From an uncultured Bacilli bacterium (lineage in GTDB: Bacteria; Bacillota_I; Bacilli_A; RF39; UBA660), in the NCBI GenBank assembly GCA_947591455.1, contig CANQDC010000003.1, positions 1 to 52,388 of the forward strand: a stretch of DNA of 52,388 nt. The letters run 5' to 3'. The notes under the pieces are model-generated. The model was given only the letters and a program-made list of their open reading frames with translations, made no database searches and was not told where the DNA came from. Positions 7,765 to 12,087 of this stretch are shown here, in pieces; within the stretch, counting starts at the first letter, position 1, and every line of letters begins with the position of its first letter. The position numbers and the translations under genes are program-made.

Positions 7765-8898
7765 ATGAAATTAATAAAACTGGATAAAAATTATGATATA
7801 AAAGTAAAAAGTCAAGTGACCCATTTTTTAACTCCTGATTTTATTTATATTCCCATTGAAAATAGACCGCTTCCATTTAAAAGAAATCAAGAAATTAAAA
7901 AAGAAGAGTCAATTTTTACTGATGTATTCTCTCCTATTTCTGGAAATATTATTGGTGTTTCCAATGGTACTTTTTATGATGGACAAACGAAAAAATGTCT
8001 TGTTTTAAAAAATAATTATCAAGAAAAAGTAAAAAATAGAGTAGCTACACGAAAAAAATTAAGTACCATTACGATTGAAAATATCAAAAATGAAATCAAA
8101 AGAGCGGATTTACAAGAAAAATTATTGCATTTAGATAGCAAACATCTAATCGTCTGTGGAATTGATGAAGAACCTTATATAGCCAATGAAGTATTTATTC
8201 AAAAAGAAAATACCAAAGAAATATTAGAGACGTTGGATGCTTTGTTAAAGTTTTATGAAAACGCCACAGCTCATATTATAATAAAAAATATTGATAGTGA
8301 AAATATAGAGAGTTATTCTAATTTTTTAGGGACATACCAAAATATTGAGCTACATTTAGTCGATGATTATTATATGATCGGCGAAGAACAAAATATTATT
8401 AAATCTTTACATATTAAAGAAGAATATATTTATCTAAAAGCAAGCGATGTTTATGAAATTTATTATAATTTGAAAAAAAGAAAGCCAATCGTCGAAAAAT
8501 ATATTACCATTACAGGAGATGGAATAGCCAATCCTCAAGTTTTTGCTGTAAAATTAGGAACAAAACTAATGGATATTTTAACTGTGAATTATGATCTTGA
8601 TTTCACTAAATATGATCTTTATGTGAATGGGCTTATGAGAGGGAAAAAAATAAATATTGCCAATTTAATCGTGACGAAAGAATTTGATGGAATACTTATT
8701 ATGAATAAAAAGAAAAAAGAACCAAAAGAATGTATTCGTTGCGGGAAATGTATTGAAATATGTCCAATTCATTCTAATCCTATGATGGCTTATTTAACTC
8801 ATAAAAAAGTTCCTTGTATTGAATGTGGTTTATGTTCTTATATATGTCCATCTTATATTCATTTAAGAAAATATTTAATAGGTGATAGTAATGAGTAG
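7765..8898 (+). CDS. RnfC-like electron-transport subunit
   Basis: Barrel-sandwich-like N-terminus (FSPISGNIIGVSN), ITITGDGIANPQ, and two 4Fe-4S motifs CIRCGKCIEICP / CIECGLCSYICP. Confidence 0.78.
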   Translation: MKLIKLDKNYDIKVKSQVTHFLTPDFIYIPIENRPLPFKRNQEIKKEESIFTDVFSPISGNIIGVSNGTFYDGQTKKCLVLKNNYQEKVKNRVATRKKLSTITIENIKNEIKRADLQEKLLHLDSKHLIVCGIDEEPYIANEVFIQKENTKEILETLDALLKFYENATAHIIIKNIDSENIESYSNFLGTYQNIELHLVDDYYMIGEEQNIIKSLHIKEEYIYLKASDVYEIYYNLKKRKPIVEKYITITGDGIANPQVFAVKLGTKLMDILTVNYDLDFTKYDLYVNGLMRGKKINIANLIVTKEFDGILIMNKKKKEPKECIRCGKCIEICPIHSNPMMAYLTHKKVPCIECGLCSYICPSYIHLRKYLIGDSNE

Positions 8899-9796
8899 AT
8901 TACATAAAAAAATAACGATTTCTTTGCTTCAAAAATATTATATAGCTTTTTTCTTTTGTATACTATTTGGTATTTTTAAAAATGGCCTTCTTCCTTATGT
9001 TAAAGGGTATTCCAATATTTCCGAAACAATCACAATACTTATTTTGCCTATTTTATGTTTTGGAATAGGGTTTATTTTCGATCTTATTTTCAAAAATCGT
9101 GAAATGTTTAACAATCGTTTTTTTGCCTTACTTTTCTTACTCATGATTCCCGTTCAATCAAATCTTCTTTTTGTATTATTATTTTTATGTATTTGTTTAT
9201 TTTTATATAACTATATTAAAAAATGGCAAAAAAATAGTTTCTGGAATTGGATGGTAGGGATCAAATTATTTTTTGTTTTTTTACTGATATCGTTTCATAG
9301 TTATGGGTATGAAAATGTTTTAGAATTAAGTAAAGATTTTCAATATTCTTTTCTTGATTCTTTTATCGGATTTCATGTAAGTGGCCTGTATATTTCTAGC
9401 ACTATGATTCTATTTTTGTTTTTATTTATTTTTTGTTTTGATTATTATTATAAAAAGGAAATTGTTTTATATAGCTATGGTATATTTGGTATATCGTTAT
9501 TAGTGTACTCTTTATTAAAAGAAAATATGGGATTTATGCTGATGCATTTATTAGATAGCAATATATTATTCCCTTTAATTTTTATTGCTCCCTTATCATT
9601 ATTTTCACCTTATTCGAAAAAAGGAAAGTGGTTATATGGCATTTTAATTGGTATACTCACGTTACCATGCATTTGTTTAACCAATGTTTATGAAGGAACC
9701 TATATCGCTATATTTTTTGTCAATATTCTCTTTAATTTATTAAATTTAGTGATAAAAAGCGAAAGAAATCATATCAAAAAAGTAGAAAATGAATAG
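8891..9796 (+). CDS. Polytopic membrane protein, possibly a divergent RnfD-like subunit
   Basis: About 9-10 predicted TM segments; overlaps the rnfC-like gene; position matches RnfD but no clear SGAT flavinylation motif. Confidence 0.5.
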   Translation: MSRLHKKITISLLQKYYIAFFFCILFGIFKNGLLPYVKGYSNISETITILILPILCFGIGFIFDLIFKNREMFNNRFFALLFLLMIPVQSNLLFVLLFLCICLFLYNYIKKWQKNSFWNWMVGIKLFFVFLLISFHSYGYENVLELSKDFQYSFLDSFIGFHVSGLYISSTMILFLFLFIFCFDYYYKKEIVLYSYGIFGISLLVYSLLKENMGFMLMHLLDSNILFPLIFIAPLSLFSPYSKKGKWLYGILIGILTLPCICLTNVYEGTYIAIFFVNILFNLLNLVIKSERNHIKKVENE

Positions 9797-9874
9797 CAAA
9801 CCAAATTTTCTGCTTTTTGTTTGTTTTAAATAAATATGATATTTTAAGAGTACCCCTCCAAGAAAGGAGACATA

Positions 9875-10279
9875 GTGCTTATAAAATTTCATTTTTTAGT
9901 GATTCAACTATTTCTTTCTTTTCTTTTTTCTAAAGAAATGATAAATACCAAACTGATAATACCTAGTTTAGAAAAGACTGAAAAGTTACATATAAGTTTG
10001 AATAAACATGAATTCAATGCGAAAAACATAAAAATTACTTTCCAAAAAGATCAAATCATTCTTCAGGTTAAAAATAATGTAGCAAAAGAATTTTTAAAAG
10101 TAAATGATAAAATTAAAATATGTTTTCCAGATCAAATTGCCTATTATCGTGTGGTAGAAATTAAAAATTGGGAAGAAAAAGAGGAGCAATGGATTGTGAA
10201 AGCTCAAATGAGTGGCTACTTAGAAAAAAAAGAGAAAAATACGAAATTTATGACAAATTTCGTATTTTTTGATGTTTAA
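9875..10279 (+). CDS. Uncharacterised protein with N-terminal hydrophobic segment
   Basis: GTG start preceded by AAAGGAG; 134 aa; no family recognised. Confidence 0.6.
   Translation: MLIKFHFLVIQLFLSFLFSKEMINTKLIIPSLEKTEKLHISLNKHEFNAKNIKITFQKDQIILQVKNNVAKEFLKVNDKIKICFPDQIAYYRVVEIKNWEEKEEQWIVKAQMSGYLEKKEKNTKFMTNFVFFDV
10235..10270 (+). terminator. Strong intrinsic terminator located inside the 9875..10279 CDS
   Basis: AAAAATACGAAATTT (10235-10249), loop ATGAC, AAATTTCGTATTTTT (10255-10269): perfect 15-bp stem with U-rich 3' arm, before the stop codon at 10277-10279. Confidence 0.7.
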
Positions 10280-10332
10280 AAAAAGGAATTTTGAAGGTGA
10301 CCTTTAATATATATGAATAGGAGGCTTTTTTT

Positions 10333-12087
10333 ATGGCTTTTATCTCACAAAAAGAAATTAATGACATACGAAATGCCGTATCTATTGTAGAAGTAATTTC
10401 TGCGTATATCCCATTAACGCAGCGAGGGAAAAATTACTTCGGAGTTTGTCCATTTCATGAAGACCATTCTCCTAGTATGAGTGTATCAGAAGAAAAACAA
10501 ATTTATAAATGTTTTTCTTGTGGAGCGACAGGAAATGTTTTTACTTTTCTCGAAAATTTTTTAAATATTTCCTTTGGCGAAGCTATTGCCCAAGTGGCTG
10601 AAAAAGCAGGAATTGTTTTAAATACAAAACTCTTTTTAAAAAAAGATACAAAATATCAAGAAGAATATGAAATTATGGAATTTAGTAATAAATTTTACCA
10701 AAATAACTTGAATAGTGAAGCAGGAAAAAAAGCCATTGCGTATTTAGAAGAACGAGGTCTAAATGAAGAGGCCAGAACTTCCTTTGATATAGGACTTTCC
10801 TTAAATAAAGATATGTTAAGCAAGATTCTTTTAAAGAAAAATTACAGTGAAAAAATGTTGGCGGATTTGGGGTTAGTTCATCAATCTTCTTCTACAGTTT
10901 ATGATGTCTTTCAAAATCGCATTATGTTTCCCATTCATAATTTAGATGGACAAGTTGTCGGCTTTACAGCTCGATGTTATTTAGAAGAAAACATTAAACC
11001 GAAGTATTTAAATAGTAAAGAAACGTATTTATTTAAAAAAGGCAAAATATTATATAATTATCATCGAGCAAAAGATACCATTCGCTTAAAAAAAGAAGTG
11101 ATTTTAGTAGAAGGAAATATGGATGCGATTCGCCTACATATAAATGGAATCCAAAATGTAGTCGCTCTAATGGGAACGAGTTTAACAAAAAGTCAAATGG
11201 AAACTTTACGAAAATTACATGTTAAAGTTATCCTCATGTTAGATAATGATGAAGCAGGGGAAAGTGCAACTTATGCAGTGGGGAATGAATTAGAAGAAAA
11301 CGGTTTTGATTTGGCGATTGTTCGTTTAAGTAAAGCAAAAGATCCCGATGAATATATATTAAAGTATGGGATAGCTGCTTTAGCTGAGAATATACAAAAA
11401 GCCATTCCGTTTATGGATTTTAAATTAAATTATTTAAAGAAAAATAAAAATTTAGATTCCTCGGTAGATCTAGCAGAATATATAAAAGCGGTAATTGCAA
11501 GTTTAAAGAAAAATGATGATGAAATTTTAAAAGAAGTAACTTTACAAAAATTAAGTAGTGATTATAATATCTCTTATGCTGTTTTAAAAAGTGAATTGGG
11601 GACTTTACAAGAAAATCAAATCGCCAAAGAGAAAAAAAACGATCCTCAAAGTCCGAAACCGAAAAGCAGTTATCAAAAAATTGTCGATGAAGTTTTATTT
11701 TTTATGATGAATAGTGAAGAGTATATTCGTTTATATCAAACAAAACTAGGAATGTTTCGAGAAAAAGAAAATCGAGCGATAGCCAATGAGATTATTTATT
11801 TTTACGAAACAAATAAAACAATGAATTTAGCTGATTTTATTTCTTATATAGAAACGATTTCTTTAAAAAAAGAAATTATGGATATAATAGAAAATGTAAA
11901 AGTAAAACAACTTTCTGTAGAAGCTATGGAAGAATTAATTTTACGTATTAAAAAGAAAATAAAAGAAGAAGAAATCAAAAAACTAAAAGAGGATTTAAAA
12001 ATGGAATTTGATATTCAAAAGAAAGTAGAACTGACAGAAAAAATTGCTGAAATAAAAAAAGGAAGTGTTGAAAATGAAAGTTATTAA
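10333..12087 (+). CDS. dnaG: DNA primase
   Basis: Zinc finger [13 protein letters not shown]...[13 protein letters not shown]; Toprim [11 protein letters not shown]...MGTSLT; DNDEAGE. Confidence 0.96.

Follow-up and report, generated by a model that had tools for sequence, protein, structure and literature searches.

Probable stop-codon loss of a decaying sortase gene into the terminator upstream of dnaG in an uncultured Bacilli bacterium

Overview of the locus

The open reading frame (ORF) located at positions 9875-10279 of the window (the whole stretch of 52,388 nucleotides analyzed here, from the uncultured Bacilli genome G000) is very probably a decaying sortase gene in which a point mutation removed the stop codon, so that the frame runs on into an ancestral terminator, an accident in which no ribosome-rescue circuit is involved. 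Comparison with the relatives, among them 21 genomes of the genus, provides the evidence, i.e., a covarying hairpin, the position of the stop codon in the other genomes, the loss of this stop, the loss of the catalytic residues, and a promoter-like element immediately downstream.

According to our proposal, the hairpin would be the ordinary ancestral terminator between the dnaG-rpoD operon and the gene that precedes it. This gene would once have encoded a sortase; in the G000 lineage the catalytic residues would have been lost, and the C-terminus would be little constrained. The stop codon that abuts the stem in the relatives would have become the sense codon GAG at 10232-10234, and the frame would then cross the terminator and close only at TAA (10277), the first in-frame stop that it meets. 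Transcription is expected to end at 10265-10270, and therefore most transcripts would be non-stop; trans-translation or some other pathway would free the ribosomes on these messages, and the product would be degraded. The stop loss itself would have been neutral. The features of the gene are the following:

9863..9869, forward strand: ribosome-binding site AAAGGAG of ORF 9875-10279 (read directly)
9875..10279, forward strand: 134-aa ORF, putative degenerate sortase-family protein with an N-terminal membrane segment (position, HMM, motif loss, model)
10232..10234, forward strand: GAG (codon 120), where relatives have the stop TAG or TAA that is lost here (codon-level 3'-end comparison)
10235..10270, forward strand: putative intrinsic-terminator hairpin (fold, covariation in 18 relatives, position)
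10277..10279, forward strand: TAA, the stop now used, downstream of the U-tract (read directly)

A conserved hairpin within the coding sequence

The original prediction held that an intrinsic terminator lies inside the ORF, upstream of its stop codon, and in G000 the hairpin, the U-tract, and the stop are found exactly where it had located them. The two arms (10235-10249/10255-10269) form a perfect 15-bp stem with the loop ATGAC, and a U-tract is present at 10265-10270, the combination of stable hairpin and U-tract that defines an intrinsic terminator; the TAA stop lies downstream of both. The 3' end of the ORF, which starts with a GTG codon, reads GAG AAA AAT ACG AAA TTT ATG ACA AAT TTC GTA TTT TTT GAT GTT TAA. 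The hairpin RNA has a folding energy of -14 kcal/mol (z = -4.4) that none of 200 shuffles equaled, and there is no other perfect inverted repeat with arms of at least 13 bp and a loop of 3-8 in the 52-kb window. Synonymous-codon shuffling of this A+T-rich ORF gave a 15-bp repeat in 17 of 500 cases, and thus the repeat alone is modest evidence. A simple terminator scan of the window did not pick up the hairpin at 10235-10269, because its rules require three G-C pairs and the A+T-rich stem has only two.

The strongest evidence for the hairpin is comparative covariation. The same hairpin, with altered letters, precedes dnaG in most members of the genus and also occurs at this place in other genera of the family. 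In an alignment of 18 relatives, the rows of which were selected for having a visible hairpin, standard pairs occupy 99% of the pair cells vs. 24-53% when the partners are slid by 1-3 columns. Moreover, 15 cells are altered on both sides, a number that was not reached in any of 500 shuffles, and at two positions A-U/G-C exchanges occur on both sides of the stem. This covariation indicates that evolution has preserved the stem at the gene's 3' end. A comparable stem is weaker or absent in G009, G021, G003, G011, G004, and G032. The hairpin 10235-10270 is an old covarying element and presumably the intrinsic terminator of the gene before dnaG. The fold, the U-tract, and the covariation thus support the idea of a terminator inside the ORF, and the corollary that a transcript ending there would lack a stop codon also holds as a prediction, the TAA being located past the U-tract. 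That the transcripts of ORF 9875-10279 are non-stop is a reasonable prediction from this layout.

Loss of the stop codon

To compare the 3' ends, the stop-stem distance was defined as the stem start minus the end of the stop codon in 17 sortase-type homologues, the window included. The distance ranges from -10 to +6 nt in 15 of them, i.e., the stop is placed at the foot of the stem, and the two outliers are the window (-46) and G017 (-74), a distant relative of G000. The 3' end of the relatives follows the pattern G-K-L-x-K-K/N-stop; the corresponding stretch is GYL-EKK-GAG in the window and GKL-IKK-CAG in G017, the site of the lost stop being the fourth codon after GxL (GAG and CAG, respectively). 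The sister species G001 carries TTC at the codon-120 site and a TAA one codon later, and G008, the next outgroup, has TAA exactly at this site, so the loss of the stop dates to the common ancestor of G000 and G001 or close to it, with no new stop gained by G000 before the stem.

The dnaG tree places G000 and G017 in separate, supported regions and, therefore, the two stop losses are independent. That one codon was hit twice in a set of 17 homologues might point to something beyond drift. The second case (L014 of G017, 1083-1475) also has a frame that crosses the terminator, ending 25 nt before dnaG.

The gene upstream of dnaG is a degenerate sortase

Pfam and NCBIfam scans of the 134-aa protein yielded no family and no rescue-factor match, and a protein search in 60 relatives yielded one clear homologue only, in the sister species G001 (31% identity in this search). 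When the proteins of the locus are compared between the two species, identity is 29% for this protein, 52% for the RnfD-like neighbour, and 75% for DnaG, which is in keeping with relaxed constraint. A positional search directly upstream of dnaG revealed a homologue of the ORF in most of the genus. Some of these genes encode apparently intact sortases with HSG and TC motifs (G008, G019, and G002 and, outside the genus, G032, L128, and L130). Two intact orthologues were scanned against Pfam, both exceeding the PF04203 cut-off, and the one compared with solved structures matched several sortases. The window protein and the remaining homologues have lost the catalytic motifs and are shorter than the intact copies; the window protein lacks both the catalytic His and the catalytic Cys.

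The homology of the window protein to PF04203 sortases (class C/D-like) is found in sequence as well as in fold. An HMM of the intact orthologues gives the protein a score of 16.5 bits, and none of 2000 shuffles scored as high. The hhalign probability is 93-98% when the protein is grouped with one to four other degenerate copies (2-5 rows) and 37% when it is used alone. The AlphaFold model is confident (pLDDT 85) except at the C-terminal end, and its top four PDB matches are sortases, with weak TM scores of about 0.46-0.50; since the input alignment included true sortases, these fold matches are supporting evidence only. Taken together, these comparisons indicate that ORF 9875-10279 is a positional, degenerate, and catalytically dead homologue of the sortase upstream of dnaG-rpoD and no rescue factor. 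It differs from PF04203 sortases in the missing catalytic residues and in its low identity to the copy of the sister species. The gene is still open over 134 codons, and it may thus be selected as a non-catalytic protein.

The readthrough extension (15 extra residues, 120-134) is predicted to be disordered, the pLDDT of residues 121-134 being 53-55. The alternative offered from the start, that the last residues are simply dispensable, is supported.

The dnaG neighbourhood and terminators across the genome

The ORF is flanked by the following features:

8882..9796, forward strand: NQR2/RnfD/RnfE-family membrane protein, upstream neighbour (Pfam PF03116, E 3.6e-14; relatives)
10282..10314, forward strand: conserved dnaG promoter-like element AAAGGAATT-N15-TAATATATAT that follows the terminator immediately (consensus of 41 loci of the family)
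10333..12087, forward strand: dnaG (primase), which opens the insulated dnaG-rpoD operon (ORF; orthologues in 57/60 genomes)

The dnaG gene starts 53 nt past the stop of ORF 9875-10279. In six relatives of the genus the nearest ORF upstream of dnaG is the NQR2/RnfD/RnfE-family gene rather than a sortase-type gene. The element AAAGGAATT-N15-TAATATATAT occurs once in the window, against a mean of 0.01 expected by chance, and the bipartite element AAAGGAAAT-N-GGTAATAaATATaATTAG is found family-wide before dnaG-rpoD (41 loci) and once in 442 kb of G000. Its first half resembles a sigma-H type -35, and AAAGGAAAT-N-GGTAATAaATATaATTAG presumably serves as the promoter of dnaG. Between the upstream gene and this promoter-like element one would expect an insulating terminator.

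To place the terminator in its genomic context, we considered 442 kb of G000 (the window plus 390 kb) and all ORFs of at least 100 aa with a terminator-like hairpin. Such a hairpin was found at 47 ORF ends, and in 32 of these it starts within -20 to +5 nt of the stop; the gene of the window is the only one with the hairpin wholly inside the coding sequence. An apparent second case (L056, 121-387) was discarded as a spurious ORF beside an apparent 16S rRNA end. Since the terminators lie so close to the stops, a single substitution at the stop puts a terminator in frame. In B. subtilis, terminators a few nucleotides behind the stop codons are the rule and have been read as a sign of runaway transcription (PMC7858274). 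The ORF of the window shares with these a stem within a few nucleotides of the ancestral stop, as do most terminators of G000; it differs in that the stop itself is lost and the ORF crosses the terminator.

Ribosome-rescue genes in the genus

tmRNA is found above the cut-off in 17 of the 22 genus members and SmpB likewise in 17 of 22. Neither was found in the 67%-complete assembly of G000, even with laxer filters, nor in G001. The rnr and engB genes, which flank tmRNA/SmpB in relatives, are also missing from G000 and G001, so the absence is probably an assembly gap. A clade-wide loss of tmRNA/SmpB was rejected, given that the genomes lacking both (G000, G001, G012, and G015) do not form one clade and would require three changes on the dnaG tree. 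In this set rnr is missing from G000, G001, and G012, with only a 38%-identical RNase R-like match in G015, and engB is missing from G000, G001, and G015. No RqcH (PF05833) was found above the cut-off in the 22 genus genomes, weak sub-cutoff matches being judged spurious, and hence tmRNA may be the main non-stop rescue route in the genus.

In G012 (C12; L133, 11480-12940), engB is followed by ftsE-like genes and the rnr-smpB-ssrA block is absent. As tmRNA, SmpB, and the RNase R of this block were not found elsewhere in this 85%-complete genome, a loss or relocation of trans-translation is possible in G012.

Origin of the arrangement

The original prediction had compared the gene to E. coli arfA and B. 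subtilis brfA, in which a deliberately non-stop mRNA would be produced, its product being destroyed by trans-translation and accumulating only when tmRNA fails. The likeness consists of an mRNA predicted to end before its stop codon; for brfA, the truncation is reported to result from RNase III cleavage ahead of the stop (PMC11633108). The architecture fits such a circuit in G000 alone; the presence of tmRNA and SmpB in most of the genus, with no RqcH detected, would also suit it. However, arfA and brfA are conserved rescue factors, while here we find a lineage-specific stop loss in a decayed sortase. The comparison across related genomes confirmed the hairpin as a conserved element, but a stop beyond the terminator is found in only 2 of the 17 homologues, as independent events, and is absent from the sister species; in addition, the protein derives from a sortase, and tmRNA and SmpB were not found in G000, probably owing to the assembly gap. 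The idea of a gene sensed by its trans-translation status is thus not supported, and we regard such a circuit as extremely improbable.

The stop loss might instead be a base-calling or assembly error, the true codon 120 being TAG and the gene ending before the hairpin as in the relatives. A single MAG, 67% complete, is the source of the G at 10232, and one base would restore the ancestral layout. Nevertheless, G001 also has no stop at the codon-120 site, and thus the site is evolving, and G017 shows an independent loss of the same stop, which makes an error unlikely. Finally, the stem is covered by the ORF and dnaG begins shortly after it, so one could think of a translation-sensitive terminator, in which the ribosome melts the stem and the polymerase enters dnaG-rpoD, coupling the expression of primase and sigma factor to the translation of the ORF. 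This is very unlikely, since the arrangement shows no conservation, a promoter-like element of its own is conserved before dnaG, and the stop-abutting terminators of the genome suggest uncoupled, runaway transcription (PMC7858274).

The stop loss in a decaying sortase gene, most likely an accident, provides a clean natural case of stop loss into a terminator, affecting the same codon in two lineages of a catalytically dead gene, and a pattern that is striking in a single genome dissolves once the orthologues are compared. If such genes do make non-stop messages, they would be natural substrates for the study of trans-translation in uncultured gut Bacilli. It is very improbable, in our opinion, that decaying genes of the genus are repeatedly turned into obligate non-stop messages by losing their stops into stop-proximal terminators, the protein being silenced post-translationally via trans-translation; if so, this could be how arfA-type regulation begins.

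Other degenerate copies of the locus

In seven genomes (G010, G012, G016, G017, G013, G006, and G007; loci L011, L012, L016, L014, L018, L019, and L020, respectively), the dead sortase-like gene is located directly after a gene whose product ends in a sorting-signal-like tail (VPSTG/VPNT... hydrophobic ...YYVFKK). These genomes also carry further PF04203 sortases. The dead copy beside the sorting-signal-like gene may have a non-catalytic role.
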